Origin: Clostridia bacterium
GTDB taxonomy: Bacteria; Bacillota_A; Clostridia; Christensenellales; Aristaeellaceae
DNA length: 37,791 nt
Direction of reading: 5' to 3'
Assembly: GCA_017509065.1 (NCBI GenBank)
Contig: JAFWQM010000151.1
Location: forward strand, 1-37,791
The position numbers were made by a program, and so were the translations under genes. The notes under the pieces are model-generated. The model did not search any database. It saw nothing but the letters and a program-made list of their open reading frames with translations, and had not been told where the DNA came from. Within the stretch, counting starts at the first letter, position 1, and every line of letters starts with the position of its first letter. This document shows positions 17,502 to 37,791 of the stretch, piece by piece.

Positions 17502-18600
17502 GGAATTGCTTCGCGATATGGAGGAATACACCGAACTGATGGAGCTGGTGCAAGCGCCGGAAAAATCACCATCTCCTGATACTGTGGAGACGGTAATTCC
17601 CGCCATCACTGTGGCTCCTTTTCCAAGCGGCTCGGCAAAACCCACAGAATACCCGCTTGACATTTTGCCGGGAGAACAGTACTGGGCAGCAGTAGAGCGG
17701 GCAGATAAAGAAAGCACAGATTACATTCCGGAAAACAATGTCGGAGCCATCATCGTAATCATTCCCGGTACTGACGCGGAGGCTGGCAAGCAGGAGCAGC
17801 AAACGTCTGAAAGCAGGCAACTATCGTCGCAGGAAGATGGCATTCGTGAGCAGCCGCCAAAACCACATATCACACATCAGCCTGCAAAGCTCCCTGACTC
17901 CTCTGTGCCGCTTTCTCCAACGGAGCAAGTTATTTCCCAGGAGAGTACGCCAATAGCCAATGCACCAACAGTCCAGCCGACTGTGCAGCCAGAGCCCACC
18001 GTCACCCCAGCGCCTACGCCCCGTATCGGCAAGACCGGCGTTGATCTGGATGCCTGCAAGGTACAGAACAGCGACTTTGTAGCCTGGCTCAAAATCCCCG
18101 GCACTAAGATCAACTATCCCGTGGTGTGGACGGACAACGTGGATTATTATCTGACCCACACCTTTTCCGGTAAGGAAAGCAAGCTCGGCACACTGTTTTC
18201 CCTGGGCAAGACAGACTACAAAAGTCCCGGCAGAAACATTCCCATATACGGCCACCATATCACCACCAGCGGCGGGAACATGTTCCAGCCGCTGATGTCA
18301 TATAAAAAGCAAAGTTTTTGGGAGAGCCACAAGACCATTTACCTGGACAGCCTGTATCACCTGGGCGAATATGCCGTGTTCGCCGTGATCAATATGCAGA
18401 ACGGTGAATGGGACCCCGCTGCCGCGTCTTTCAGCGGCGATCAGGCTTTCCAGAATTTCGTGCGCCGCGCAAAGGCCCAGGCCCTCTATGATACTGGCAT
18501 CGAGGTCAATGCCGACGATCATATCATTACGCTGATTACCTGTGACCGCAGCTATCAAGACAAGGATGGCCGCCTGTTGGTGATGGCCGTGGAACGGTGA
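17386..18600 (+). CDS. srtB: Class B sortase
   Basis: A 404-aa membrane-anchored transpeptidase. A basic start and membrane segment (about 15-34) are followed by a long Pro/Thr/Ser/Gln-rich extracellular linker (to about 220) and the sortase domain, which begins DACKVQNSDFVAWLKIPGTKINYPVV. Catalytic His is in YGHH (about 289), Cys in LITCDRS (about 386) and Arg in DGRLLVMAVER (about 395). The usual TLSTC motif is TLITC here. The GTG start has GGGAGG about 10 nt upstream; an ATG at 17425 is an alternative. Its stop adjoins the giant surface protein, its probable substrate. The long linker would let it reach across the wall. Confidence 0.92.
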   Translation: MKRSEKKEQRRRKMEIACLFLLLLAGIGIMMYSVIAQDEELLRDMEEYTELMELVQAPEKSPSPDTVETVIPAITVAPFPSGSAKPTEYPLDILPGEQYWAAVERADKESTDYIPENNVGAIIVIIPGTDAEAGKQEQQTSESRQLSSQEDGIREQPPKPHITHQPAKLPDSSVPLSPTEQVISQESTPIANAPTVQPTVQPEPTVTPAPTPRIGKTGVDLDACKVQNSDFVAWLKIPGTKINYPVVWTDNVDYYLTHTFSGKESKLGTLFSLGKTDYKSPGRNIPIYGHHITTSGGNMFQPLMSYKKQSFWESHKTIYLDSLYHLGEYAVFAVINMQNGEWDPAAASFSGDQAFQNFVRRAKAQALYDTGIEVNADDHIITLITCDRSYQDKDGRLLVMAVER

Positions 18601-18632
18601 ATCATAAAAACAAAAAAGGAGAGAAAACGACG

Positions 18633-21600
18633 ATGAAAAGAAAACAAATCCTGTCCCTTCTCTTGGCGCTGCTGATGCTTTTCTCCGTTCTGCCCCTGCC
18701 CGCTTTCGCGGAGACGGATGGACTGGACGCCGCGGAAAGTGATACAGAAGAATCTTTCGATTGGCTGGAACTGAACGACAGCCTGCCGGACGAAACGGAA
18801 CAGGAAGAGACACCATCGGAGACTGATCCGGAAGATGATTCCTGGCTGTCAGAAAATGAGGACGATTCAGAAGAAACACCTTTCCAGGAAGATACTTCTG
18901 ACGAATCGGAAGAAATCCAGGTTTCCTCTGAGGATGAAGATTCCGTTGATGCTTCTGCGCTGGATGATTCGGAAGAAAACGAAGATGAAAGTTTTGCTGA
19001 CGATGATTCCGACGAAAACGATCTGCCTCCGGAAGAACCGGAATCGGATGTGACCGAGAATCCTGAACCCGAAGATACGGCAGATGATACCGCTGGATCG
19101 GATGAGCAGCCGTCCCTGGACGATATAGTGCTGACGGATTACGATGGCAGTTACATTCGCTATGCCATCGCCAATACCGGTCATGGCTATGTTAAAACCA
19201 ATGGTGCTATCACTGTTTACAGCGACAGCAGCCTGACCCGCGTTCTCTGCGGCCTGCTCAATGACGGCGAAGTGTTGCTGGGCACTGACTATGATGCAGC
19301 CGCCCATTCCATTGCCGTGCCCATCGTCACCCCGGAAATGGATGTACTGGAAGGGTATGTCCGGGAAAGCGATCTTTCCAAAGCTGTGGTGACGGACGCG
19401 GAAGCGGACGATCTGGCTGTGGAAAAGGATTACATCCTGCTCCAGATCGGGGATACCTTTTACCCTGTGTTCCTGCCTGCCGTTCATTTTACCGGGTCGG
19501 ACAGCGTGGAAGAATCTTCGGAAGAAACCGTGGAAGAATCAGAAGAACCGTCCACCGATGACGAGGAAAGCGGCGAATCAGATGACGATGGCTTCTACAC
19601 CGTCAACGTGGACGATTTTGATTTCTTCGGTGACTTCCAGGGCCCGTATGACTGGCTCCAGGCATCCGACGTGTATGTGTACACCATTTACGCAGATCAT
19701 GACCCGGCCATTCCCATCAGCACCCGCCCGGTCGCATATATGGCGGGCAACCGGCAGGGCTTTACCACCATTGATCAGGGCAATGACGGATCGGACTTCC
19801 GCTCCATCCACCAATCCTACAACATGAAGGGACAGCAGGTGACCGTGCTGGGTTTCACCCGGTATCATCACGCTGTCATTACCTGCGAATGGTATGATTC
19901 CTCTGCCAATGTTACCCGCCGACTGCTGACCGAAGCCGCTTATATGCGGCCTGTGGAAAAGACCTATTCCTGCACGGTGCGGGACCAGGCAGGCAATATT
20001 GCCCCGAACCATGAGGTCCGCGTCCTGGACGGCAAAGGAAACTATGTGACCACTGTCATGTCGGACGCCAACGGCGTGGCGCGGTATACCGGCCTGCACC
20101 TGGACGTGTCCGCCATGCTGGCCTTTGCCGAAGCCAACTATGTGGAAACGTCATCCAATACCATGATCGAGGACAATGACTGCGCTTCCTTCGTTTCCGA
20201 ATGTCTGACAGCGGGCGGATTCCCTGTGTACGGCGCATACGCCTCCAACAGCGAAGCCAACGAAGGGCAGATCGGCTACGGCCTGTATAACCGCCTGGTC
20301 AGCTGGATCGGCGTACCCGGAAAGGCCAATCCTTCTGTGCGGGAATTATCCCCCGGCGATACGGTGTTCATGCACGCGCAGAGCAACGCCAACTTCCCCT
20401 ATGGTCATTCCATGATCATCGGCCAGGTGGATTACGCATCTGGACAGGTGCTGGTGTACGGCCATTCCTCCGCCAATAAGCAGGCGGGCGATAGCAACAA
20501 AATGTGGATTTCCGTAGACCGCATCTGCTATGCTGCCTTCACCTCCATTTACAACTACACCTTTGATTACAGCTTCTCTACCCCTACGCCGATCCCCACA
20601 GCGACACCGACCACCCCTCCCACGACACCGCCAACCACACCACCGACCACCCCTCCTACGACACCGCCGACGCAGCCGCCGACACAACCGCCTACCCAAA
20701 CGCCGACACCTACGCCTGCCAAGGGGCGTATTCGTATCATCAAAACGGACGCGGTATATGGAACTCCCATTGCTGGGGTCATCTTTGATATATCCCTGAA
20801 CGGTACGGTGATCGCCAGCATCACGACCGACGCCAACGGCACGGCGGTATCCGGCGAACTGCCTGCCGGGAAATACGATGTGGTGGAGCGGAAGACGCCA
20901 ACCGGCTATACCGGGATTCCCGCCTGGGCGGAATGCCAGGTTACTTCCGGGAAAACCACGGATGTAACAGTGACAAACCAGCCCATCCAGTTCAAGGTGA
21001 AAGTGATCAAAACCGACGCACAGACGGGTTCTCCCCTTCCCGGCGCAGAGTTCACCATCACCAGGAAATCTACCGGGAAAGTTGTTGCCACAATTACCAC
21101 CAACGCCAGCGGTGAAGCGACCAGCGCGCTTTTGCCCTACGGCGAATATACGATCAAGGAAAGCAAAGTGCCCGCCAACTATGTGGACAAAGGGTACACC
21201 ACCACCATCAATGGCACGGAGCATAATAAAACCTATGAAATCCGCGTTACCAATGAGCCCATGCAGGGCGGTATCCGCATCACCAAAACGGATAAGCTGG
21301 ATGGCAGCCCTATTGTCGGAGTAATCTTTGACATTTATTCCGGCACCACCAAAGTGGCCAGCATGACCACGAACGCTCAGGGTGTGGCTGTTTCAGGCGA
21401 TTTGCCCAAGGGCAGCTACACAGTAAAAGAACGGGCGTTGCCTACTGGCTATACCGGCAATTTGGTATCCCTGAACTGCGATGTGGCCGCAGGCAAAACC
21501 ACCGAACTGACCGCCACCAATGAGCCGATTCAGTTTAAAGTAAAAATCGTAAAAATCGATAGCCTGACCAAAGAACCTCTGGCAGGAGCGGAATTTACCA

Positions 21601-24600
21601 TCACCAACAAAGCAACAGGAAAGACTGTTACCACCCTGACCACGGATAGTAAGGGCGAAGCGGTCAGCGGCCTTCTGCGGTACGGCGAATACACAGTTAC
21701 GGAAACCAAAGTGCCCACCCACTATACCACCAGCACCTTCTCCACCACCGTGTCCGGTACGGAGCATAACAAGGTATATGAAATCAAGGTAGAAAACACC
21801 CCCACCCAGGGCAAGATTCAGCTGACCAAAACGGATAAGCTGGATGGAACGCCCATTGCCGGGGTCGTGTTCGACATTTACCAGGGCAGCACGAAGGTAG
21901 GCTCCATGACCACCAACGCCCAGGGCGTCGCTGTGTCCGGCCCGCTGCCCAAAGGCAAATATACCGTGAAGGAAAGCGGTCTGCCCACCGGCTATACCGG
22001 CAGTCTGGTTTCTCTGGATTGCGAAGTGAAATCAGACGAGACCACAGAATTGAAGGCTGCCAATCAGCCCATTCAATTCCGAATTAAGATCGTAAAATCC
22101 GACGCTCTGACCAAAGAACCGCTGGCTGGCGCGGAGTTTACCATCACCCGGAAAAGTGGCTTGTCCTCTCACAATGGTGCTGATAATGGGAAAGTGGTCG
22201 CTACCCTGACCACCAATGCCCAGGGCGAAGCGGTAACGGATTTGCTGACCTGGGGCGCCTATGAGATCAAAGAAACCAAGGTTCCCGAGCATTTCGTGGA
22301 TAAGCACTATACCACCACCATCACCGGCTCGGAAGACAAGAAGGTTTACGAGATCCGGGTGGAAAACGAGCCCACCAAAGGTTGGATTCAGCTGACCAAA
22401 ACGGACCGCCTGGACGGTACGCCCATTTCTGGCGTGGTATTTGATATTCTCCAGAACGGAAAGATCGTGTCCTCCATGACCACCGGTGCGGACGGTGTGG
22501 CCAAATCCGAAGCCCTGAACAAAGGAAAGTACACGGTGAAGGAGCATGCCAATCCCACCGGCTATACCAACGAGCTGCTTTCCCTGGACTGTGAAGTGCT
22601 GTCCGATACTACCACCAAAATGACAGCGGACAACCAGCCGATCCAGGGAAAAATCAAGATCGTGAAAAAGGATGAACTGACCAAAGCGGCCCTGGCAGGC
22701 GCGGAGTTCACCATCACCCGGGTGTCCGGTCTGCCGTCCCATGACGGCAGCAACGACGGCGAAGTGGTGGCCGTGCTGACCACTGACGCCAGCGGCATGG
22801 CGTTATCTCCCTTGCTCACCTGGGGCACCTATCAGGTGACAGAAACAAAAGTGCCTGCCCATTACGTGGACAATCATTTCTCCACGAAGATAGTTATCAA
22901 GGACGATATGAAAACCATAGAAGTGCCTGTGGAGAACGAGCCCACCAAGGGCTGGATTCAGCTGGTGAAAACCGACGCCCTGGACCGTACCCCCATTGCG
23001 GGCGTGCAATTCGACATTTACTACAATGACGAATACGGCTCCGGCTTGGCAGCCACCATGACTACCAACGAAGAAGGTGTGGCGAAGTCCCCGGCGCTGC
23101 GGAAAGGCAAGTACCTGGTGAAGGAACACGCTGACCCCACCGGATATGTGACCGATCTGGTGACCCTGGACTGCGTTGTGCGTTCCGACGAAACCACGGC
23201 AATCAGCGCCACCAACCAGCCCATCCAAGGCCGCATCAAAATCATAAAGACGGACGAACTGACCAAGGAAGTCTTAGCAGGCGCGGAATTCACCATTACC
23301 CGAGTCAGTGGCCTGCCCTCTCACAACGGCAGCAACGACGGCGAAGTGGTGGCAGTCATCACCACGGATTCCAAGGGTATCGCGGTCACGCCGCTGCTGA
23401 CCTGGGGTACCTATCTGGTGGAAGAAACCGGCGTCCCCCTTCATTATGTGGACAACAGCTATTCCACCGAAGTGACCATTTCAGAAGAAAACCTGAAAAC
23501 CATTGACGTACCCGTCGAAAACGAGCCCACCAAGGGCTGGATTCGGCTGACGAAAACGGACCGGAAAAACAGAAATCCCATTGCCGGTGTGCAGTTCGAT
23601 ATTTTCTACAACGATCAGTACGGAGAAGGCTTGGCTACCACAATGACCACCGGCGCAGATGGTGTTGCCATATCCGAACCCATCCGCAAAGGCCGGTACA
23701 TCGTGAAGGAACACGGTGCGACAGAGGGTTATCTCTTTGAGGAAGTCACCCTGGAATGCACGGTGAAGTCCGACGAGATCACCGATCTTTCCGCCACCAA
23801 TCGGCCCGTGGGCGTGAAGCTGAAGCTGTTCAAGCGGGATAAAGACGAATACACCGGCAAAACCTCCGATGTGCCCGGCACCCGCGGTGACGCGATGCTG
23901 ACTGGCGCTGTGTTCCAGGTGCTGGCGGGCGAAGCCATCACTGACCGGCAGGGCAACATCCTGTTTGAAAAAGGCGCTGTTGTCGTGGAGAGCCTGAAAA
24001 CCGCAGGAGACGATGCGTCTGTCATCACAGACGAACTCTGGCCCGGCGTGTATGAGATCGTGGAGCTGACGCCGCCCACCGGCTACCAGCCCACGAACAA
24101 GCATACCATTGTTGACGCCACTTCCGCGGCGAAGCAGTCCAAGGAAGCGGTTATCACCTATGAGGGCGTTGTGAAAAACGAAGTGCTGTACGGCTGTCAT
24201 GCTTTCGTGAAGTTCTGCGGCGACAATGAGATTCACGACGAAGCGGGTCTGGTGGAAACGCCGGAAGAAGGCGCGGTATTCCAGGTGTATCTGAAAGCGG
24301 CGGGCAGCTATGAAGCCGCCCGGAAATATGAGCGCGACACCATCACCACGGATCAGTACGGCAGAGCGAAAACTAAGCTGCTTCCTTATGGTATCTATAC
24401 TGTAAAGCAGACGAAAGCCAAGAAAGGATTCGCCATCAAAGCGCCCTTTGACATTTTCATTCGCGGCACGGAGGACCCCGCCAATCCGCCCAGCATGATC
24501 CTGAATAATGAAGCCATTCGCTACCGGCTGAAATTCATCAAGATCGACGCGGAAACCGGCAACACCATCACAGCGGCGCATACCTCCTTCAAGCTGAAAG

Positions 24601-25124
24601 ACAGCGAAAGAAACTATGTAAAGCAGACCGTGTTCTATCCCCACAAGGAGGAAATCGACACCTTCACTACCGATGATACCGGCGAGGTGACGCTGCCCGA
24701 AACTGTGAATTACGGCCTGTATTTCGTGGAGGAGTTCAAAGCCCCCGAAGGGTATCTGATCGCTACCAAGGAGCTGTCCGTTTTCGTGGGCGACGAGCAG
24801 ATGAACCAGCCCGGCGAAGCCTATCTGCTGGAATACAAAATCGAGAATGAAGCGGTGAAGGGCCTCATCCTGCTGGATAAGAAAGGCTTGCAGCTGACGG
24901 GCTTCGAGGAAAAGACCGACAGCTTCGGGAACACCTATTATCAGCCTGTCTTTGAGGAAAAGTATCTGGCAGGCACTGTATTTGAGGTACACGCCGCCGA
25001 GGACATTGTGGGCAAGGATGGGACGCTCTGGTATCACGCCGATGAACTGGTAGACACCATCACCACCACCGCCGCAGGGAAAGACCCTCCAAGGTGCTGC
25101 CCCTGGGTAAGTATTATTTGGTAG
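18633..25124 (+). CDS. Giant amidase/SpaA-repeat surface protein, 5' part (frameshifted)
   Basis: The first 2,163 residues of a surface protein of about 2,825 aa. Order: signal peptide cut after AFA (about residue 26); Asp/Glu/Ser-rich region to about 175; an SH3-like stretch; a second acidic patch; an amidase/CHAP-like domain with Cys in NDCASFVSEC (about 517) and His in YGHSMI (about 591); a Thr/Pro linker (about 650-695); then about 15 SpaA/Cna-B-type repeats that start with patterns such as IKTD or VKIDSLTKEPLAGAEFTI. Each can form a Lys-Asn/Asp isopeptide bond. The ATG at 18633 has AAAGGAGAG before it. A single base is missing near 25087, so the frame leaves the conserved repeat sequence and stops at 25124. 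It is probably a conjugation-linked adhesin with wall-cutting activity. Confidence 0.88.
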   Translation: MKRKQILSLLLALLMLFSVLPLPAFAETDGLDAAESDTEESFDWLELNDSLPDETEQEETPSETDPEDDSWLSENEDDSEETPFQEDTSDESEEIQVSSEDEDSVDASALDDSEENEDESFADDDSDENDLPPEEPESDVTENPEPEDTADDTAGSDEQPSLDDIVLTDYDGSYIRYAIANTGHGYVKTNGAITVYSDSSLTRVLCGLLNDGEVLLGTDYDAAAHSIAVPIVTPEMDVLEGYVRESDLSKAVVTDAEADDLAVEKDYILLQIGDTFYPVFLPAVHFTGSDSVEESSEETVEESEEPSTDDEESGESDDDGFYTVNVDDFDFFGDFQGPYDWLQASDVYVYTIYADHDPAIPISTRPVAYMAGNRQGFTTIDQGNDGSDFRSIHQSYNMKGQQVTVLGFTRYHHAVITCEWYDSSANVTRRLLTEAAYMRPVEKTYSCTVRDQAGNIAPNHEVRVLDGKGNYVTTVMSDANGVARYTGLHLDVSAMLAFAEANYVETSSNTMIEDNDCASFVSECLTAGGFPVYGAYASNSEANEGQIGYGLYNRLVSWIGVPGKANPSVRELSPGDTVFMHAQSNANFPYGHSMIIGQVDYASGQVLVYGHSSANKQAGDSNKMWISVDRICYAAFTSIYNYTFDYSFSTPTPIPTATPTTPPTTPPTTPPTTPPTTPPTQPPTQPPTQTPTPTPAKGRIRIIKTDAVYGTPIAGVIFDISLNGTVIASITTDANGTAVSGELPAGKYDVVERKTPTGYTGIPAWAECQVTSGKTTDVTVTNQPIQFKVKVIKTDAQTGSPLPGAEFTITRKSTGKVVATITTNASGEATSALLPYGEYTIKESKVPANYVDKGYTTTINGTEHNKTYEIRVTNEPMQGGIRITKTDKLDGSPIVGVIFDIYSGTTKVASMTTNAQGVAVSGDLPKGSYTVKERALPTGYTGNLVSLNCDVAAGKTTELTATNEPIQFKVKIVKIDSLTKEPLAGAEFTITNKATGKTVTTLTTDSKGEAVSGLLRYGEYTVTETKVPTHYTTSTFSTTVSGTEHNKVYEIKVENTPTQGKIQLTKTDKLDGTPIAGVVFDIYQGSTKVGSMTTNAQGVAVSGPLPKGKYTVKESGLPTGYTGSLVSLDCEVKSDETTELKAANQPIQFRIKIVKSDALTKEPLAGAEFTITRKSGLSSHNGADNGKVVATLTTNAQGEAVTDLLTWGAYEIKETKVPEHFVDKHYTTTITGSEDKKVYEIRVENEPTKGWIQLTKTDRLDGTPISGVVFDILQNGKIVSSMTTGADGVAKSEALNKGKYTVKEHANPTGYTNELLSLDCEVLSDTTTKMTADNQPIQGKIKIVKKDELTKAALAGAEFTITRVSGLPSHDGSNDGEVVAVLTTDASGMALSPLLTWGTYQVTETKVPAHYVDNHFSTKIVIKDDMKTIEVPVENEPTKGWIQLVKTDALDRTPIAGVQFDIYYNDEYGSGLAATMTTNEEGVAKSPALRKGKYLVKEHADPTGYVTDLVTLDCVVRSDETTAISATNQPIQGRIKIIKTDELTKEVLAGAEFTITRVSGLPSHNGSNDGEVVAVITTDSKGIAVTPLLTWGTYLVEETGVPLHYVDNSYSTEVTISEENLKTIDVPVENEPTKGWIRLTKTDRKNRNPIAGVQFDIFYNDQYGEGLATTMTTGADGVAISEPIRKGRYIVKEHGATEGYLFEEVTLECTVKSDEITDLSATNRPVGVKLKLFKRDKDEYTGKTSDVPGTRGDAMLTGAVFQVLAGEAITDRQGNILFEKGAVVVESLKTAGDDASVITDELWPGVYEIVELTPPTGYQPTNKHTIVDATSAAKQSKEAVITYEGVVKNEVLYGCHAFVKFCGDNEIHDEAGLVETPEEGAVFQVYLKAAGSYEAARKYERDTITTDQYGRAKTKLLPYGIYTVKQTKAKKGFAIKAPFDIFIRGTEDPANPPSMILNNEAIRYRLKFIKIDAETGNTITAAHTSFKLKDSERNYVKQTVFYPHKEEIDTFTTDDTGEVTLPETVNYGLYFVEEFKAPEGYLIATKELSVFVGDEQMNQPGEAYLLEYKIENEAVKGLILLDKKGLQLTGFEEKTDSFGNTYYQPVFEEKYLAGTVFEVHAAEDIVGKDGTLWYHADELVDTITTTAAGKDPPRCCPWVSIIW
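20719..23800 (+). repeat. Tandem SpaA/Cna-B coding repeats in alternating A/B pairs
   Basis: Eleven repeats of about 255-300 nt alternate between type A (KTDxLDGTPIAGVxFDI) and type B (KIVKxDxLTKEPLAGAEFTI). Three successive B repeats share an extra insert (SGLPSHNGSNDGEVV or close variants) and are joined to A repeats by ENEPTKGWI. The A+B unit recurs every 570-585 nt between about 22370 and 23530, with high DNA similarity, which points to unit duplication. Confidence 0.8.
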
Positions 25125-27109
25125 AAGTATCCGCTCCCGAAGGCTTCCTGTTCTCCGAAGAACGGTATGAAGCCAATCTGGAATATACCGACGATCATAC
25201 CGCCTTGGTGGAAATCACTGTGGAAGCGGGCAATGATTACCTGCCTGTGGAAGCATCGCTTACCAAAGAAAAGGAAGATTTGCAGGTTGTCACAGAGGAC
25301 AATAGTGTTCGGCAGTTGCTGACCGTCACGCCCGGGTCTGGCTTCGTGTTCGGACTGTACAATGATACCGACATTCGCTATGAGGGCGGCACGCTGCTGG
25401 CGGATACGCTAATAGCCACCGGCTCTACGGGCGCGGACGGCAGGCTGACCTTCTCCGGCATCTATCCCCATGGCCGCTATTCCATCAGAGAATTGGCCGC
25501 TCCGGAAGGTTGGAAGCTGAATCCCAATTCTTTCTCTTTTGATCTGACCGCCAATAACAAAAACGCCGACAATGTAATCAGTGTCATGCTGCCCGCACCC
25601 GTGCGGGATGAACTGATCTACACCCGCGTCACCCTGACCAAGACGGATATTACCGGCCAGACCACCATCCCCGGTGCGCTGATTGAAGTAACCGATAAAG
25701 AAGGAAACATCATTTACCGCGCTTATACCGATGAAAACGGTGAGATCCCGGATATCCCTGTCACCCCCGGGCGGTACACCTTCAAGGAAATCCTGGCTCC
25801 GGAGGGATATGAGCTGAACACAGCGGAAATGAGCTTTTCCGTGGATAAGGACGGCAACATCACCGGTGATACCGTGATCCGGGATGATTACACTCGCTTC
25901 TATCTCCTGAAGCTGGATGAAGTAGGCCGCGCCTTGCCCGGCGTGGAATTTGGCCTGATCAACGCGAACGATGAAATCATGTTCACTGCAGTATCGGATG
26001 AAAAGGGCGTCGTTACCTTTGAGAAAATCCCTTACGGAACTTATACCGTGATGGAAACCCGACCCTTGCCCGGCTATGTGTCGGACGGTACAACCGTGGA
26101 AATCAACGTGGACGGAACCTTCGTGAATCCTTCCCTGCCCCTGGCAACCATCATGAACCGGAAAAACACGGTGCTGGTAAAGAAGGTTGATCAGGAGGAC
26201 AATCCCCTGGCAGGTGCTGAATTTGCCCTGTGCAATGAATTTGGCGACCGGGTGGATACCGCCGTTTCCGATCAGAACGGCATCGTGCGGTTCAGCGGCA
26301 TCCCCTACGGAAACTACACCATCCGGGAAATCATTGCCCCGCAGGGGTATCTGCTCAACCGGCAGGTGATTCCGCTTACCATCGACAGGGATTTCCGCAG
26401 CAGCGAGGAACCCATTGCCACCGTGGTCAATCACCTGAAACGCCTGAAATACATCAAGGTGGACACCAGCGGGCATTCCCTGCCCGATGTGGAATTCAGC
26501 CTGATCAACGCCGCCACGGAGGAAGTGATGGAAACCGTCACCAGCAATGAAAAAGGCGAGTTTATCTTCACAAAATTCGACTATGGCGTGTGGATCATCC
26601 GGGAAACGAAAGCCCCGGAAGGCTTCAATCGCATGGAGGACATCATAGTATCCGTGGACAGCGATTGGGTGGAGCCGGAACCCTTCACCTGCGTGAACAT
26701 TCCCAATCACTACGAATTTGTGAAAACGGATAACGAAGGGCACCCGCTGCCCGGCGTCAGGTTCACCCTGGAGGACACCGAAGGCAACATCCTGCGCGAC
26801 CTGATTTCCGGCGAGGATGGAATCGTGCATGTGGACGATCTGGCACCCGGCGCTTACCTGATTAGGGAAATTGAAACCCTGGAAGGGTACACGGTCACGG
26901 AGGAAACCATTCCTGTGCTGATCGACGAGCATTACATTGTTCCCGATGAAATGTTCGCCCTGAAAAACTACCCCACCATCCAGACCGGCGCGGGCATTGA
27001 AATGACGCCTATGATGTGGGCAGGCGCTGGCCTGGTCGGTTTGGCGCTGATCCTGGGCGTGTTCCTTGGTATCCGTCATAAACAAAAGAAGCGTCGGCAC
27101 AGCCGATAA
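25094..27109 (+). CDS. Giant SpaA-repeat surface protein, 3' part with sorting signal
   Basis: Continuation of the preceding gene in another frame. Conserved sequence resumes immediately (VLPLGKYYLVEVSAPEGF), so this is not a separate gene; the GTG at 25094 has no ribosome-binding site of its own. It encodes about six more SpaA-type repeats (for example YLLKLDEVGRALPGVEFGL and VLVKKVDQEDNPLAGAEFAL), each ending near an E-x-x-x-PEGY pattern. The C-terminus is a cell-wall sorting signal: NYPTIQTGAG, a hydrophobic helix (MMWAGAGLVGLALILGVFLG) and a basic tail RHKQKKRRHSR. The motif is not LPxTG, consistent with handling by the element's own class B sortase. If the frameshift is real, the upstream part would be released unanchored. 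Confidence 0.88.
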   Translation: MLPLGKYYLVEVSAPEGFLFSEERYEANLEYTDDHTALVEITVEAGNDYLPVEASLTKEKEDLQVVTEDNSVRQLLTVTPGSGFVFGLYNDTDIRYEGGTLLADTLIATGSTGADGRLTFSGIYPHGRYSIRELAAPEGWKLNPNSFSFDLTANNKNADNVISVMLPAPVRDELIYTRVTLTKTDITGQTTIPGALIEVTDKEGNIIYRAYTDENGEIPDIPVTPGRYTFKEILAPEGYELNTAEMSFSVDKDGNITGDTVIRDDYTRFYLLKLDEVGRALPGVEFGLINANDEIMFTAVSDEKGVVTFEKIPYGTYTVMETRPLPGYVSDGTTVEINVDGTFVNPSLPLATIMNRKNTVLVKKVDQEDNPLAGAEFALCNEFGDRVDTAVSDQNGIVRFSGIPYGNYTIREIIAPQGYLLNRQVIPLTIDRDFRSSEEPIATVVNHLKRLKYIKVDTSGHSLPDVEFSLINAATEEVMETVTSNEKGEFIFTKFDYGVWIIRETKAPEGFNRMEDIIVSVDSDWVEPEPFTCVNIPNHYEFVKTDNEGHPLPGVRFTLEDTEGNILRDLISGEDGIVHVDDLAPGAYLIREIETLEGYTVTEETIPVLIDEHYIVPDEMFALKNYPTIQTGAGIEMTPMMWAGAGLVGLALILGVFLGIRHKQKKRRHSR

Positions 27110-28485: not shown

Positions 28486-29004
28486 ATGCAAGAAGAGATA
28501 GAAAACAAGTCAATTACTCTCATCATCAACTGCACCAAGTTTTCAGGCCGTGTGCTGAAAAGCGCCATCTCCAAATACCTGGCGCATCGCGGCGCGAAGC
28601 ACCGGGAAAAGAAAATGGATCGAAAAGCGCAGCGCCGGGAACGGCAGACCGGAAACGTGGTGCATCGGGGAAAACAGACCGTAAAGCAACTGGTATCACA
28701 GAATCAGGGTGTCAGCACCATGGACGTGTCGGACAAGGATATCAAGGATTTTCAGCGGGTGACCCGGAAGTACGGCGTGGATTATGCCGTGAAGAAATCC
28801 AAGGGGCAGCCCAATCAATACCTGGTGTTCTTTAAGGCACGGGACAATGATGCCCTGATCGCCGCGTTCAATGAGTTCACCCAGAAGCGGGAATACAAGA
28901 AGGAGCATCCTTCCATCCTCAAGCGCCTGACCAAGAGCATGGTCCAATCCATGCAAAAAAATCCCGACAAAGTGCGGAATAAAAGGCAGGAGATTGACCG
29001 ATGA
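28486..29004 (+). CDS. pcfB: PcfB family (DUF3801) conjugation protein
   Basis: A 172-aa basic protein of the PcfB/DUF3801 family. In enterococcal pCF10, PcfB is needed for transfer along with the PcfC coupling protein. Recognisable parts are an N-terminal region (ITLIINCTKFSGRVLKSAISKYL), a Lys/Arg-rich stretch (HREKKMDRKAQRRERQ) and the core VSDKDIKDFQRVTRKYGVDYAVKK, ending in ARDNDALIAAFNEF. ATGGAGGCG lies 7 nt before the ATG. It overlaps virD4 by 4 nt (ATGA), matching the usual pcfB-virD4 pairing. It is intact although its partner is cut. Confidence 0.85.
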   Translation: MQEEIENKSITLIINCTKFSGRVLKSAISKYLAHRGAKHREKKMDRKAQRRERQTGNVVHRGKQTVKQLVSQNQGVSTMDVSDKDIKDFQRVTRKYGVDYAVKKSKGQPNQYLVFFKARDNDALIAAFNEFTQKREYKKEHPSILKRLTKSMVQSMQKNPDKVRNKRQEIDR

Positions 29005-29954
29005 AAGCGAAGAAAATACTCATTCAGACCATTCCCTACCTGTTCGTGGCCCTGTATGCCACCAAGCTGGGCGAAGCCTGGCGGCTGGCGGAAGGGACGG
29101 ATGCCTCGCAAAAGCTGCTGCATATCACGCAGGGCTTTTCGGCAGCGTTCCAGTCACCCTTTCCCAGCTTTGTCACTTTTGATCTGCTTATCGGCTTCAC
29201 GCTGGCGGCGTGCTTTCGGCTGTATACCTACGCCAAATCCAAGGACGCGAAGAAATACCGCAAGGGCGTGGAATACGTCTCCGCCCGCTGGGGCACCCCG
29301 GAGGACATAAAACCCTTCATAGACCCCAAATTTGAAAACAATATCATTCTCACCCAAACCGAACGGCTCACCATGGCGTCCCGTGTCCCCAATCCAGCCA
29401 ATGCCCGCAATAAAAATGTGCTGGTTATCGGCGGCTCCGGCAGCGGTAAAACGAGATTTTTCGTCAAGCCGAATTTGATGCAGCTCCATTCCTCATACGT
29501 GGTTACTGACCCAAAAGGGACGGTTCTTGTTGAATGTGGAAAGCTGCTCAAAGACAATGGTTACCGCATCAAGGTATTCAATACGATCAACTTTGACAAG
29601 AGCCATCACTACAATCCTTTGGCCTACGTTCACAGCGAAAAGGACATTCTGAAGCTGGTGAATGTGCTGATCGCCAACACAAAGGGCGAAGGAAAATCCG
29701 GGGATGACTTCTGGGTCAAAGCGGAAACGCTGTTGTACACGGCACTGATTTCCTATATCTGTACACAAGGCCCAAATGATGAAAGAAATTTTACCACGCT
29801 GGTATCCATGATCAACAGTATGGAGACCCGCGAGGATGACGAGGATTTCAAAAACCATGTAGACAAGCTGTTCGACGAACTGGAACAGCGGGACCCACAG
29901 CACTTTGCTGTAAGGCAATACCGCAAGTTTAAGTTAGCGGCTGGTGTGACATAA
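29001..29954 (+). pseudogene. virD4: VirD4/TraG-type coupling protein, truncated by an insertion
   Basis: The 5' half of the type IV coupling ATPase that links the relaxosome to the secretion channel. Two N-terminal membrane segments (about 8-20 and 57-74) precede the conserved YVSARWGTPEDI and Walker A GGSGSGKT (144-151), then YVVTDPKGTVL. Family proteins are near 600 aa; this one ends at 317. The sequence is normal through KFKLAAG (29945), then reads VT-stop inside the left end of the serine-recombinase element. The Walker B region and all-alpha domain are missing, so it cannot work. The downstream half is not found in the window. Confidence 0.88.
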
Positions 29955-30020
29955 TGTACACGACATCTTACTTATGAGATATAAAGGAGATGATCATAGC
30001 AGGAGAGGAGAACTGAATAC

Positions 30021-31892
30021 ATGAATAATCCCACGATTACCGCCTTGTATGAGCGGCTGAGCCGTGACGATGAATTACAGGGCGAATCAAACTCGATCAC
30101 GAATCAAAAAAGGCTCTTGGAAGAATACGCGCGAAACCATGACCTGACGAATACCGTTCACTTTACGGATGACGGCATATCCGGCACACGATTTGATCGT
30201 CCTGGGTTTCTGGCAATGATGGCTGATGTGGAAGCCGGAAAAATCCATACTATTTGCGTGAAGGATATGAGCCGTATAGGGCGGGATTATCTCAGGGTCG
30301 GCGAGGTCATGGAGTCACTTCGCAAAAAAGGTGTCCGGCTGATTGCTGTCAATGACGGTGTGGACAGCTTCAATGGAGACGACGATTTTACCCCCTTCCG
30401 TAATATCATGAACGAATATTACGCACGAGATACCAGCAAGAAAATCCGCTCCACCTTCGCTGCCAAAGGACGTTCAGGAAAGCACGTTGCCAGCACAACA
30501 CCTTATGGGTATTTGAAAGACCCGTTGGATCATAATCAGTGGGTCATCGATGAAGAGGCCGCTCAGGTGGTACGCCGTATCTACCAACTGACGATCGACG
30601 GGTATGGCCCCTATCAAATTTCGCAGATTCTTACCAGCGACAAAGTGGAAATACCAGCCGTTCACATGGCAAAGCACGGCGCTGGCTTATGGCAGGGTCG
30701 AATCGAAGAAATCAAAGATCCCTATGCCTGGGGTTCGTCCACGGTTGTGGGCATCCTCTCAAAACGGGAATACCTGGGCGAAACAGTGAATTTCAAAACC
30801 CGTAAGCATTTTAAGGATAAGAAAAGCCACTATGTTTCCATGGATCAGTGGACGGTATTCGAGGGAACCCAAGAGCCGATCATTGATCAGGAAACCTTCG
30901 ATACTGTGCAGCACATCCGTACTCAGGTCAAGCGCTATCCCAATGGCTGGGGTCCCGCTCATCCGCTGACCGGCCTGCTGATTTGCTCCGGCTGTGGGAA
31001 AAGGCTGTACGAGCACCGTAACTATAATGGCTCAAAAAAATCGATGTTCTCCTGTGGTGAATATGGCAAATATCCCATCGGCACGAAGTGCCCCAGCGCA
31101 CATCGTATTTATGGGGATACAGTAATGAAGCTGCTGTCGGAAATGCTGCGGGCCTGTGCCGAGTATGTTCATATTGACCGGGAACAATTCATGCAGAAAA
31201 TCCAGCAGGAAGAAGAAGCGCTCTATTCAGAAGAACAGGCTCGATTTGCAGAACGTATCCGTGTAGCGCAGGTCAGGGCCAATGAGCTGGAAAAGCTGAT
31301 TTGCCGCATCTATGAAGATCACATTCTCGATAAGATTCCCGATGAACGGTATGAAGCGTTGGACAGCCAGTATTCCCAGGAATTGAAACGGATGAAGGAA
31401 GAAATCACGGGTTGCGAGGCGGCAATGGCAGAACACGCGAAAAAGCGCGGCGCTGCCGGAAAATTTGCTGATCTGTTTGACAATTATCAGACCTTTGATC
31501 ATCTGACCTCCGCCATCGTCCATCAATTTGTGGACAAGATCGTCGTGCATGAGCGGGAAGTAAAAGGCAGCCAGACCAGCCCTCAGCAGATCGACATTTA
31601 TTTCAACTTCATCGGTAATTTTGTGCCTCCGAATTTTGGCGATGCGCCTTTGACGCCTGAACAAAAAGAGGAACAAAAACTGCTTGTGGAGCGTCGGGAA
31701 AAGTTCAAGCAGATTTATCAGAAACGCAAGGCGAATGGCAGTCAACAGGTTTATAAAGAACGGTACAAGGAAAAGCATAAAGCGCAGGTTGCGGCCAAAA
31801 AGGAAGAGTGTCGGACAGAAGCCATTGCAAGTGGCATTTATACCCACGTTCAGCCCATCCTTCAACCGCAGAAGGGAGTGGCAGCGGTATGA
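30021..31892 (+). CDS. tnpX: Large serine recombinase, TnpX-like
   Basis: A 623-aa recombinase that excises and inserts the mobilizable element. The resolvase domain starts ALYERLSRDDE with catalytic Ser14, followed by the conserved DDGISGTRFDRPGF, VKDMSRIGRDYLRVGE and the D--D-FTPFRNIMNE-YARD-S-K segment. A recombinase domain (GKHVASTTPYGYLKD, about 155-260), a zinc ribbon (CSGCGKRLY near 323, second pair of Cys near 349 and 361), a coiled coil (about 395-465) and a C-terminal DUF4368-like domain follow. TnpX of Tn4451 is 707 aa. AGGAGAGGAG lies before the ATG. The stop overlaps tnpV by 4 nt. Confidence 0.93.
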   Translation: MNNPTITALYERLSRDDELQGESNSITNQKRLLEEYARNHDLTNTVHFTDDGISGTRFDRPGFLAMMADVEAGKIHTICVKDMSRIGRDYLRVGEVMESLRKKGVRLIAVNDGVDSFNGDDDFTPFRNIMNEYYARDTSKKIRSTFAAKGRSGKHVASTTPYGYLKDPLDHNQWVIDEEAAQVVRRIYQLTIDGYGPYQISQILTSDKVEIPAVHMAKHGAGLWQGRIEEIKDPYAWGSSTVVGILSKREYLGETVNFKTRKHFKDKKSHYVSMDQWTVFEGTQEPIIDQETFDTVQHIRTQVKRYPNGWGPAHPLTGLLICSGCGKRLYEHRNYNGSKKSMFSCGEYGKYPIGTKCPSAHRIYGDTVMKLLSEMLRACAEYVHIDREQFMQKIQQEEEALYSEEQARFAERIRVAQVRANELEKLICRIYEDHILDKIPDERYEALDSQYSQELKRMKEEITGCEAAMAEHAKKRGAAGKFADLFDNYQTFDHLTSAIVHQFVDKIVVHEREVKGSQTSPQQIDIYFNFIGNFVPPNFGDAPLTPEQKEEQKLLVERREKFKQIYQKRKANGSQQVYKERYKEKHKAQVAAKKEECRTEAIASGIYTHVQPILQPQKGVAAV

Positions 31893-33672: not shown

Positions 33673-35304
33673 ATACCCTGTCCCCATTTCAATATCAGAA
33701 TTGTGTCCAGGGCGAAGGGAGAATCCGTAATGGCCGCCGCTGCCTATCAAGCCGGCGAAAAACTTTTCTCCGAATATGATGGGCAATGGAAATCCGGCGA
33801 CCATCAGGAACGGATCGTTCATAAGGACATTCTCCTGCCGCCCAATGCGCCAAGAGAATATGCGGATCGTCAGACGCTCTGGAACGCAGTGGACGCATCG
33901 GAAACCAAGGATAACGCCCAGACTGCCCGGCGATTTATCATCACGCAGCCCAAGGAATTATCCATCGAAGAAAACATCCAGCTGATCCGGGATTACTGTC
34001 AAAAGCAGTTTGTGGACCGAGGCATGATCGTTGATCTGGCTGTTCACTTCGATGACAAGGAGCCGCCTAATCCTCACGCCCATATTCTCTGCACGATGCG
34101 TTCCATAAACGAGCAAGGACAATGGAACGATAAAACAAAAACTGCCTATGCTCTGGACGAAAACGGGAACCGCATCATGGGCAAAAACGGAAAGTGGAAA
34201 CGTATCCGCATAGACACGGTGGATTGGAATGATCGGAAATACTGCGAGATATGGCGGCATGAATGGGAAGTGATGCAGAACGCAGCTTTGGAAGAGGCTG
34301 GAAAAACAGAACGGGTCGATATGCGATCCTACGAGCGGCAAGGCATTGAGACGGCACCCCAGGTGCATCTTGGCCCTGCCGCTTTTGCTTTGGAGAAGAA
34401 AGGTATCCGTACTGAACTGAGAAGCCATAACAATGCTGTGAAGATCATCAATGCACTGTTCAATGCTATCAAGCGTAAACTGAAATCTTTGACGGGTTGG
34501 ATGAAAGAACTGCATGAGGTAATCGCTGACCATGAGAAGATAGAAAACCCTTCCGCTTTTCCCCTCTATGAAGTGCTGTTTGCCTATTACGATCTGCGAA
34601 AAAAGGAACGCCGGTATTGGAATATCTACGCGCAGAACAAAGCGGGAGCGAAGGACTTAAAGACTCTTTCACGGGCAATCCTCTTTCTCCAGGAACACAA
34701 TATCCGCACCGTCAACGATCTGGCTGCCCTACTAAACGAAACCGGTGCCAGGATCGGAGAAATGAACGCTGTCAAGAGAGCAAAAGAACAGCGCATCCGG
34801 GATATTGACGCCATCATGGAAGCGGATAAAAATATCCGTGAGTTTGGCCCGGTTTTGGAGAAGTACAACGGTATTTTCTTCAAAGGAGCAAAAGAAAAAT
34901 ATGGATGTGAACATGCCGATGAGATCGAGAAGGTGAAGAAGGCTCAACGTCTGCTGTACAAATTGAAAATGACACAACCCATTCCAAAGAAAGCCCTCAA
35001 GGCGGAATCTGCCCAGCTTCGGGGCGAAGTGGAATCCATGCTGCCCGAGTTGGAAACCGTCAAAGCGGAAATGGAACAGCTTTTGTCCTTCCGATCCCAG
35101 GTAAGAAAGGTACTGCCAGAAGCATTGTCGGTGAAGCATGAGGAAGGAAAGAAATCCTTTGAGGATATTTCAGAGGAAGTCCAGAACCAGAAGGAATTGC
35201 GGAAACTTTTGGAGCAATCCGCAGAACGGGCAATCCGATATAACGAAGAACAGCATAGGCAGCAGGAACAACAGCACCAACAACAGCAGAAGGGGGCTTT
35301 ATGA
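33673..35304 (+). CDS. mobL: MobA/MobL-family relaxase
   Basis: A relaxase that nicks oriT and leads the strand during mobilization. The N-terminal domain carries PCPHFNIRIVSRAKGES, AAYQAGEKL and the metal-binding HAH of PNPHAHILC (about 135-137), with a long helical C-terminus ending in Gln repeats. The family start M-PCPHF is encoded here by ATA at 33673, 8 nt after a strong GGAGGTG. The next accepted start, GTG at 33703, would remove PCPHFNIRI and has no good ribosome-binding site. I give the ATA form (543 aa); the GTG form is 533 aa. Either the gene uses a rare ATA start or a G-to-A change has weakened it. The stop overlaps the next gene by 4 nt. Confidence 0.9.
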   Translation: MPCPHFNIRIVSRAKGESVMAAAAYQAGEKLFSEYDGQWKSGDHQERIVHKDILLPPNAPREYADRQTLWNAVDASETKDNAQTARRFIITQPKELSIEENIQLIRDYCQKQFVDRGMIVDLAVHFDDKEPPNPHAHILCTMRSINEQGQWNDKTKTAYALDENGNRIMGKNGKWKRIRIDTVDWNDRKYCEIWRHEWEVMQNAALEEAGKTERVDMRSYERQGIETAPQVHLGPAAFALEKKGIRTELRSHNNAVKIINALFNAIKRKLKSLTGWMKELHEVIADHEKIENPSAFPLYEVLFAYYDLRKKERRYWNIYAQNKAGAKDLKTLSRAILFLQEHNIRTVNDLAALLNETGARIGEMNAVKRAKEQRIRDIDAIMEADKNIREFGPVLEKYNGIFFKGAKEKYGCEHADEIEKVKKAQRLLYKLKMTQPIPKKALKAESAQLRGEVESMLPELETVKAEMEQLLSFRSQVRKVLPEALSVKHEEGKKSFEDISEEVQNQKELRKLLEQSAERAIRYNEEQHRQQEQQHQQQQKGAL

Positions 35305-35793: not shown

Positions 35794-35843
35794 CAAACCG
35801 AATTATGACTTTTGTGGACGATGAATTGAAGGAGAACAAGAAT

Positions 35844-36038
35844 ATGGAAAAGGATGTTATCGCAAATACTGAAAATGAAGCAGAAAAGACTTATACTACT
35901 GTAACAAAAACGATTGATGGTAGATCGTTTTCTATTTGGGTCTTTTTTCCGGATGCAAACACAGAAACAATGCAGGAAAAAATAGAGCGTATGCTCCACA
36001 CAGATATTGTGAAAGCCATACGCCAAACTGCTACTTGA
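35844..36038 (+). CDS. tnpW: Transposon-encoded protein TnpW
   Basis: A 64-aa protein with the TnpW pattern: TTVTKTIDGRSFSIWVFF then ETMQEKIERML and a short helical end. In Tn4451, tnpW is the last gene before the right end, as here. In the excised circle it would lie just upstream of tnpX. AAGGAG lies 9 nt before the ATG at 35844; the open frame further upstream lacks such a site. Function not established. Confidence 0.82.
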   Translation: MEKDVIANTENEAEKTYTTVTKTIDGRSFSIWVFFPDANTETMQEKIERMLHTDIVKAIRQTAT

Positions 36039-36135
36039 GAGAAAGCGTGTTTCTATATCTGTACAGAGTGGATTTTGGGGTAAAAGTGATCAAGTAAATG
36101 GGGTTTCAATTGAAAATTGCATTCTGCGGAGTCCG

Positions 36136-36414
36136 GCGGCCGCAGTTGCGGTTTGTGAACGGCCGGCTTGCGGCATAAACGGCCGCATGTTTATACGGAA
36201 ATTTTCCTCTGGGGGTTGACGTCGGGGCCCTGTCGGCGTGGATAGCCAGCCTTAAGGGCCATCCCCGTGGCCGCCATCTGTATAGGCGTCCACTGGGCTG
36301 GTGCCTACGGCAAGGATACCACACCGACTGCACAACATAAACCCCACGCCGAGAAATTTCCTTACAAAATCGTGAAAATAACCTGCGGCCGTTTTGCTCC
36401 GCAAACCCGGCCGC
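36136..36414. ncRNA. Candidate large structured RNA or nested-dyad DNA element
   Basis: This GC-rich non-coding stretch has a series of helices that nest in the right order: GCGGCCG (36136-36142) with CGGCCGC (36408-36414); TTGCGG (36146-36151) with CCGCAA (36399-36404), separated from the first by a 3x3 internal loop; GGAAATTT (36197-36204) with AAATTTCC (36354-36361); CGGCGTGG (36234-36241) with CCACGCCG (36344-36351); CCAGCC (36246-36251) with GGCTGG (36296-36301); and the hairpin GGCCA-6 nt-TGGCC (36257-36272). Further local hairpins lie in the outer loops. No reading frame through it is convincing. It could be a non-coding RNA, a leader of the downstream HTH/methyltransferase operon, or a DNA-level element such as an origin. 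Strand undetermined. Confidence 0.4.
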
Positions 36415-36475
36415 TGGCTTACGCAATATGCAAAAATCCTGTTGACAGTAATAAGTAAACATAAGTTCCTATCTC

Positions 36476-36504
36476 TTGACTGATTTCGTTTAAACGAATA
36501 TAAT
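36476..36504 (+). promoter_or_regulatory. Consensus promoter with palindromic operator for the HTH/methyltransferase operon
   Basis: TTGACT (36476-36481) and TATAAT (36499-36504) are exactly 17 nt apart. The spacer holds the perfect 14-bp palindrome TTCGTTTAAACGAA (36485-36498), which abuts the -10 box. A dimer bound there would block RNA polymerase, so the promoter is probably repressed, perhaps by the HTH protein it drives. Confidence 0.8.
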
Positions 36505-36538: not shown

Positions 36539-36748
36539 ATGAACGGATACATGACGACACAAGAAGCTGCTGTAAAATGGGGAATTACCGATCGACAGGT
36601 GCAGATACTCTGCAAGGAGAACCGCGTTGTCGGAGCGACTCGTATGAGTAGAATATGGGTAATTCCAGAAGAGGCTGAAAAGCCAACGTGCGATAAGCGT
36701 AGGAACAACGTTAATGGACGGCCAGCAGAGGGAAGAAACGATGAATAA
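36539..36748 (+). CDS. Small helix-turn-helix DNA-binding protein
   Basis: A 69-aa protein with one HTH of the excisionase/MerR-like type: MTTQEAAVKWGITDRQVQILCKE, then VVGATRMSRIWVIPEEAEKP, the usual wing ending in W-IP. Such proteins commonly precede methyltransferase or restriction genes and act as regulators. ACGAGG lies before the ATG. It overlaps the methyltransferase start by 8 nt. The palindrome in its promoter is a plausible binding site for a dimer, making this an autoregulated pair; that is inferred. Confidence 0.8.
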   Translation: MNGYMTTQEAAVKWGITDRQVQILCKENRVVGATRMSRIWVIPEEAEKPTCDKRRNNVNGRPAEGRNDE

Positions 36749-37791
36749 CACAATGGGAACGAAACGCCCTATAGCACAGCCCGCTCCCTGGCGCATGCAT
36801 GAGTTTTTTGCCGGCAGCGGTTTGGTTTCTTATGGCTTGCAGGGAATGTTCGATTCTGTGTGGGCGAATGATATTAGCGAGCAAAAAGCAGCCGTTTATG
36901 AAGCAAATTTTGGATTGGATCATTTTGTTCTAGGGGATATCAAAAACATACAGGGCGGCGACTTGCCAAACGCTCACATGTCGTGGGCTAGTTTCCCATG
37001 CCAAGATCTATCTCTGGCCGGATCGCTTGGAGGAATTCATGCGTCTCGAAGCGGGCTTGTATGGGAATGGCTTAGAGTGCTTGACGAGCTTAAAACAAAG
37101 CCTAAAATTCTGCTGTTAGAGAACGTCACCGGTCTTTTGTCAACCAATCATGGAGATAACTATCGTGTTTTACACAACGCGATAGTTGAACGTGGTTACG
37201 ACTGCGGCGCTATCGTATTGAACGCTTCATTGTTTGTTCCACAGTCTCGCCCCAGAGTTTTTATCATCGCGGTTAAGCAAGGGTACGAGATTCCAAGAGA
37301 CTTGGTTGGCGATGGGCCCTGCTGGCTCCATAATCAATCAGCGATTGATTTAGGAAAAACACTGTCACATTGGATTTGGTGGCAAACCGATAAGCCTCCA
37401 AAGCGTAAAGAATCGCTTAAAGATATCGTCGATTTATCCGCTCCATTCGATAAAGACGACGTCTTAAAACTTATTCCCGATAATCATAAAGCGAAACTTG
37501 ACGAACATGATACCGTGTATGCGACTGGTTACAGAAGGACGAGAAACGGTAAACAGCAACTTGAAATAAGATGCGATGGAACTGCGGGATGCCTTAGAAC
37601 GCCGGAAGGCGGAAGCAGTAAACAGTATCTTGTGGTAAAAGACGGTAGCACAATCCATGCTCGTCTTCTTACCGTTCGCGAAGCTGCTCGTTTAATGGGC
37701 GCTCCCGATACGTTCATTCTACCAGGAAGTTATAACGACGGTTATAAGGCAACGGGCGACGCGGTAGCGATGCCTGTAGCCAAGTTTATTG
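36741..37791 (+). CDS. C5-cytosine DNA methyltransferase (3' end outside the window)
   Basis: At least 350 codons of an m5C methyltransferase that modifies a specific DNA sequence using S-adenosylmethionine. Motif I is FAGSGLVSYGL (from residue 23), the catalytic motif is SFPCQDLSLAG (Cys near 87), motif VI is LLENVTGLL, motif VIII is PQSRPRVFIIA, motif IX region is LLTVREAARLMGAPD and motif X is TGDAVAMPVAKFI. All are in order, so the visible part is nearly complete and probably active. AGGGAAGAAACG precedes the ATG, which overlaps the HTH gene. Codon use is more AT-rich than the backbone, suggesting transfer. A restriction enzyme gene, if any, would be beyond the window. Confidence 0.93.
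   Translation, partial: MNNTMGTKRPIAQPAPWRMHEFFAGSGLVSYGLQGMFDSVWANDISEQKAAVYEANFGLDHFVLGDIKNIQGGDLPNAHMSWASFPCQDLSLAGSLGGIHASRSGLVWEWLRVLDELKTKPKILLLENVTGLLSTNHGDNYRVLHNAIVERGYDCGAIVLNASLFVPQSRPRVFIIAVKQGYEIPRDLVGDGPCWLHNQSAIDLGKTLSHWIWWQTDKPPKRKESLKDIVDLSAPFDKDDVLKLIPDNHKAKLDEHDTVYATGYRRTRNGKQQLEIRCDGTAGCLRTPEGGSSKQYLVVKDGSTIHARLLTVREAARLMGAPDTFILPGSYNDGYKATGDAVAMPVAKFI

Follow-up and report, generated by a model that had tools for sequence, protein, structure and literature searches.

What is a large, stable fold doing in the non-coding DNA between the end of a mobile element and a DNA methylase operon? The question is raised by a 37,791 nt contig of a Clostridia bacterium (JAFWQM010000151.1; this whole stretch of DNA is referred to below as the window), in which the initial annotation described, at positions 36136–36414, a nest of long-range helices without a convincing reading frame and likened it to a large structured RNA of no recognized class.

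The folded region and its surroundings

The window opens with the genes for SpoIVA and a UvrD-type helicase/nuclease and with two tRNA-Ser genes, followed by genes of integrative-element type (AntA/KilAC, ParA, ParB, a sortase, SpaA-repeat proteins and a T4SS coupling protein). The next module comprises a large serine recombinase (30021–31892, + strand; Pfam Resolvase, Recombinase and DUF4368), TnpV, a MobA/MobL relaxase (33703–35304, + strand; Pfam E 4e-80), a Cys-rich protein and a TnpW-like ORF (35805–36038, + strand; a weak match, E 2.5e-4, under the Pfam cut-off), a gene set that we take to be that of a TnpX-type mobilisable transposon. The hairpin has the TnpW-like ORF on one side and, on the other, a small HTH ORF (36539–36748, + strand; weak HTH_59 and HTH_17 matches, under cut-off), which is followed by a C5-cytosine DNA methylase gene truncated by the window end (36714–37790, + strand; Pfam E 1e-53). 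Upstream of the methylase genes is a promoter-like site (36476–36504, + strand; 11/12, a consensus match only). SpoIVA is present in five of the ten genomes reached via the relaxase, the nearest being 93% identical (G003, the genome that holds the RUG563 locus L003). Related transposons at two loci (L001 and L002) align across the relaxase module and TnpW, and a search with covariance model R3, described below, found no hairpin in L001, L002, L003 or L006. Two further features of the region may be mentioned here. Within 29001–31892, the ORF for the T4SS coupling protein (317 aa) stops just upstream of the serine recombinase gene, which looks as though the transposon had landed in this ORF, and within 18597–27109 the sortase gene has beside it two SpaA-repeat proteins of very large size, 2175 and 671 aa.

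That a large nested structure exists at this locus is borne out by minimum-free-energy folding. Positions 36136–36414 fold at −126.7 kcal/mol on the + strand (shuffled sequences, −101.35, SD 4.98; z −5.09) and at −137.3 kcal/mol on the − strand (z −6.30), with none of 200 shuffles as good on either strand, and the longer stretch 36100–36450 keeps the signal (z −5.80 on the + strand and −6.85 on the − strand; 0 of 100 shuffles each). The arms that had been taken as closing the whole region are present as noted, but they are not the outermost, since they sit within a longer inverted repeat with arms at 36117–36151 and 36399–36433 (74% complementary), and pairing spans about 36117–36433. The description of the structure as multibranched suits the + strand, for which the minimum-energy fold is branched, better than it suits the conserved consensus: the − strand fold, which is the better one, is mainly a single long rod, and the covariance models built from the hairpin family are without a branch point. 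Reading frames do cross the folded region (118 and 102 aa on the − strand, 63 aa on the + strand), but a Pfam search at E up to 0.1 matched none of them. The failure to match a known class was repeated with Rfam 15, which at the gathering cut-off gave no match to the hairpin in the window or in 29 fetched loci. Rfam matches lay elsewhere only, namely two tRNAs in the window and a pemK RNA (RF02913) at 3475–3570 of L151, outside the hairpin and near a hairpin-bearing IS3-type copy. No promoter-like site was found for the − strand core in the window.

A family of hairpins with one conserved fold

The conserved part of the structure is a core hairpin of 132 nt on the − strand (36213–36344), defined by covariance models R1, R2 and R3 (R3, 76.1 bits) and by covariation. 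Helix 1, whose 5′ strand (36331–36344) forms columns 1–14 of alignments A3 and A4, is completed by its 3′ strand at 36213–36226. Adjoining it on the 3′ side is an asymmetric internal loop (36227–36231), AGGGC here and mostly AGAGG in relatives, which is unpaired yet largely invariant in both alignments. Helix 2, established from the covariation alignments, pairs 36318–36328 (5′ strand) with 36232–36242 (3′ strand). The apical part (36243–36317) varies in length and sequence among relatives, an entire hairpin being as short as 73 nt in L161 and 79 nt in L159, and a small GCC-UNNNN-GGC hairpin on the 5′ side is, as judged by eye, repeated in many members.

Beyond the core, a left outer arm (36117–36212) is complementary to a right outer arm (36345–36433); the sequence held in common with L018 begins in the former at about 36118 and ends in the latter at about 36377. 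Palindromic repeats at three loci of another genome (L014, L016 and L017 in G002) have CGAGAAATTTCCTTACAAATCC in common with the window outer arm and are perhaps another repeat family. At L012, L013 and L015, contigs of G009 and G006 break inside the left arm of the hairpin, beside a common IS-like end, and such assembly breaks fit a repeated element.

The window element is not particular to its locus. By blastn, the core has a 79% match in G004, and 186 bases are matched at 91% in G111, for which alignment extends the similarity from about 36118 to about 36377 of the window. A strict pattern found G111 as the sole match among 396 genomes of the order, and the class-wide model search proved this pattern too narrow. 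At E up to 0.01, model R1, built from three cores, matched 13 of the 300 genomes searched in the nearest family. With model R2, built from 17 cores, matches came from 18 of 308 genomes in that family (E up to 1e-3) and from 26 of 391 in the class (E up to 1e-4), with G111 counted in; these counts are minimum values of limited precision, since only the top candidates in each genome were scored and the model E-values are rough. From the 47 class-level matches listed outside G111, 28 hairpins in 27 loci were fetched. Model R3 was built from 26 members, L166 included, without the Bacillales plasmids discussed below. As relatives are found by covariance model and not by plain sequence search, such sites become searchable across Clostridia and Bacilli. 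Blastn of the window element against plasmids and phages gave no match, nor did searches of the plasmid or phage type with the L011, L034, L037 and L146 copies, and five patterns gave 0 matches in viral contigs. The family is apparently not yet catalogued; we recognized no paper describing it in the open-licence literature, which does not mean that none has been published.

The support for a conserved fold of one strand is strong, covariation among relatives standing far above shuffled and slid controls. In A3 (17 sequences, 28 pairs), 95.1% of cells are paired, double changes occur in 14 pairs, and covariation is 0.408 as against 0.167 when shuffled. In A4 (26 diverse sequences, 23 pairs), 94.5% are paired, 18 of the 23 pairs show double compensatory changes, and covariation is 0.656, as against 0.205 when shuffled and at most 0.134 when slid. 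Both alignments were made without structure, the structures themselves being drawn from the same sequences; partial or weak members (L035/L065, L038/L061 and L045) were excluded from both, and A4 further excludes L025, L026, L032, L033, L041 and L043 as well as L037-type copies that are near-duplicates. Compensatory changes could also arise by template switching at palindromes, but the preservation of the asymmetric loop argues against this as the whole cause. Wobble pairs outnumber A–C pairs by 49 to 28 (23 sequences, near-duplicates included), a strand bias on which we do not rely because the relatives are not independent.

Occurrence in insertion sequences and rolling-circle plasmids

The hairpin is found in mobile elements that are unrelated to one another. 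In 17 of the 27 class-level loci fetched (10 genomes), a transposase gene ends at most 100 nt upstream on the same strand, encoding a UPF0236 protein in six, IstA/IstB in five and IS3 orfB in six (one broken gene). The labels ISLre2, IS21, IS3 and ISL3 derive partly from Pfam (for proteins other than IstA/IstB and ISL3) and locus similarity, and are in part presumptive. Five of the eight copies in G712 were fetched and lie within repeats of 1878–1896 bp that are 98–99% identical, the UPF0236 transposase ending 74–90 nt upstream of the hairpin, and three copies in G884 lie inside repeats of about 2720 bp, 98 nt downstream of an IstB-like gene. Other arrangements include inverted copies downstream of IS3 orfB and ahead of the likely right end (L024), upstream of IS3 orfA (L034, L036) or adjoining rve genes (L156, L162), a copy with an IS3 gene about 900 nt off (L144) and one with an IS110 transposase 322 nt downstream (L167); no transposase was present among those neighbours examined of L148, L168, L169 and L172.

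Some copies belong to small units. Those of the L037 type (five in G111, more in G115 and G122) form units of 255–259 bp, and the ends of these units match those of an element in L096 that is longer, intact and without the hairpin; ends matching an autonomous element, as in a MITE, were found for this type only and not for the window copy. A 282 bp unit is common to L139, L140 and one L138 copy (three places in G976), and L026 is surrounded by a segment of 378 bp that is bounded by perfect terminal repeats of 20 bp. Locus L138 also has a pair of hairpins that differ in type, face opposite ways and are separated by about 350 bp, and at L058 (7259–7492) the hairpin lies beside a partial EcoRI-type methylase in a unit of 234 bp with inverted ends of 19 nt. 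Target-site duplications were not consistent among five copies, and the search for an empty site gave no clean one; at L030 a long direct repeat in the flanks was set aside, its right flank being duplicated nearby too.

Members of the family are also carried by small plasmids. The foot of the L166 and L151 hairpins matches Bacillus plasmids by blastn (E 1e-4 to 1e-3), and L166 is on a 3183 bp contig with an SSB gene and a Rep_trans protein. The hairpin of pPM2 matches 13 plasmid records, nine of them across most of its length, and one architecture is seen in pFL5, pPM2 and plasmids of B. sonorensis, Planococcus and Exiguobacterium. Model R2 missed the Bacillus plasmids; R3, which was built from more diverse members, recovers these five (E 2e-10 to 3e-8, the E-values being rough), and a single sequence-structure model covers clostridial and Bacillales copies. 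Matches of R3 in Macrococcus and Halobacillus plasmids are weak (E 0.025 and 0.062, filters off) and fall at or near the blastn places. Apart from the hairpin, plasmid pPM2 (1768 bp) contains little more than a Rep-like ORF and a gene of 68 aa. The orientation of the hairpin is that of rep in all six records in which it could be placed, namely pFL5, pPM2, pMC5, L166 and, with their weak matches, Macrococcus and Halobacillus, the rep of pPM2 being our own reading of an unannotated ORF; no rep was seen in the Planococcus and B. sonorensis records. Local alignment of 12 members to pFL5/pPM2 was clear for L166, L151, L133, L167 and L168 (z 7 to 16) and modest for L141 and L146, and showed no similarity for L145, L149, L152 and the window-type L051 and L052; the plasmid link of these last five rests on R3, as direct similarity is absent.

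A candidate single-strand origin and its rivals

In rolling-circle plasmids, rep runs with the leading strand. We hypothesize that the members of the family are imperfect palindromes in DNA, each folding as a strand-specific hairpin and acting in the manner of a single-strand origin (sso), a reading to which we give an even chance. It draws on the covariation, the near-invariant unpaired loop on the 3′ side, the R3 matches in plasmids, the orientation shared with rep, the SSB gene of L166 and the relaxase of the window transposon; counting against it are the lack of resemblance to the plasmid sso's compared below, the absence of direct similarity between the window type and pFL5/pPM2, and the modelled hairpin strand in the window, which is opposite to the relaxase gene. 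Our working model is that a mobile element becoming single-stranded, whether in rolling-circle replication, in conjugative transfer or possibly in IS copy-out, would fold at the hairpin, that the fold would be recognized by a priming enzyme of the host, by analogy to the sso's already described RNA polymerase, and that second-strand synthesis would start from there. A hairpin or sso role in insertion sequences is, to our knowledge, not established biology. IS3, IS21, ISLre2 and, for the MITE ends, ISL3 are all among the eight copy-out-paste-in families listed in PMC9333248, according to which figure-eight replication starts from a free 3′ OH; we infer that copy-out insertion sequences need second-strand priming. 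The broader proposal, that second-strand synthesis begins at one hairpin family in rolling-circle plasmids, in mobilisable transposons and in insertion sequences of the copy-out-paste-in kind alike, is one we regard as tentative and somewhat doubtful. Were it true, IS copy-out in these bacteria would pass through a primed single-strand stage. Conversion from single to double strand is known for few Gram-positive mobile elements, and second-strand synthesis during IS copy-out would become directly testable if the sso reading holds.

The main rival, which we consider unlikely, is a selfish palindromic unit (ERIC-, MITE- or REP-like) that spreads in non-coding mobile DNA without any part in replication. 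It would leave copies scattered among unrelated flanks, as observed, and the L037-type units in G111 and G122 with their L096 ends, the unit present three times in G976 and the L026 segment with its terminal repeats all suit it; yet the outer arms and ends differ between whole units while the core fold and asymmetric loop stay the same, no clean empty site is at hand, and the fact that the hairpin is kept close to transposase stops and in rolling-circle plasmids of minimal size suggests that it is of use. A structured RNA produced by the mobile elements, for instance a 3′ UTR or an antisense regulator of the transposase, would likewise explain the strong covariation and the same-strand position after the transposase stop in most of the class-level loci, and the excess of wobble pairs is in its favour, although it would also be compatible with one strand of single-stranded DNA. 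Against it stand the five copies inverted relative to the transposase (L024, L034, L036, L156 and L162), the solo and plasmid copies that have no transposase, and the outcome of the Rfam and promoter searches. Because the same fold recurs in several kinds of mobile DNA and keeps the orientation of rep in rolling-circle plasmids, we favour folded single-stranded DNA; RNA is possible but ranks second, and we think it distinctly improbable. What survives of the structured RNA first proposed is therefore the fold of one strand, conserved by covariation, rather than its RNA nature. Least probable, and by our estimate very much so, is a transcription insulator or terminator limiting read-through out of or into the transposase: the location just downstream of transposase stops would suit it, but the cores inspected have no regular T run directly 3′ of the hairpin and a terminator has no need of a conserved asymmetric loop.

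The sso reading can be set beside systems already described. REP sequences (RAYT) resemble the family in being a palindromic single-strand fold, and were rejected because eight of 14 host genomes gave no Y1 transposase match and none of 11 Y1 loci fetched contained a hairpin. Integron attC sites have in common with the family a folded single strand with a conserved base and a variable apex; they were set aside because the family's end boxes appear to differ from the attC consensus. ERIC, MITE and small palindromic repeats are likewise dispersed, non-coding and palindromic, some in units with transposon ends, whereas the present family keeps one fold across unrelated units and plasmids. The sso comparison used stretches of pTA1040 and pTA1060, which we take to be ssoT, and the record of pUB110, which presumably carries ssoU. 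The pTA1040/pTA1060 stretches, named as sso's in PMC4595007, showed no similarity to 12 queries on both strands (best z 3.0) and R3 matches to them were at chance level, as they were on the whole pUB110 record (best E 2.2), and membership in either was rejected on these grounds. In PMC5703833, sso's are described as functioning solely on the leading strand and not in reverse, ssoA as a large fold primed by RNA polymerase, and an RSB motif as common to ssoA, U, T and W; sso1 of ICEBs1 extends the need for second-strand synthesis to a conjugative element, virtually nothing having been known of this step in ICEs (PMC4595007). A large conserved fold of one strand and a fixed orientation relative to rep are the sso features seen in the present family. 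Like the sso's of plasmids and ICEs, it is a large strand-specific imperfect palindrome on mobile DNA, with plasmid copies in the orientation of rep. It differs in bearing no resemblance to the pTA1040/pTA1060 stretches, in having chance matches only in pUB110, and in lying also inside insertion sequences. If the sso reading holds, one class would be added to the five named in PMC5703833 (ssoA, ssoU, ssoT, ssoW and ssoL).
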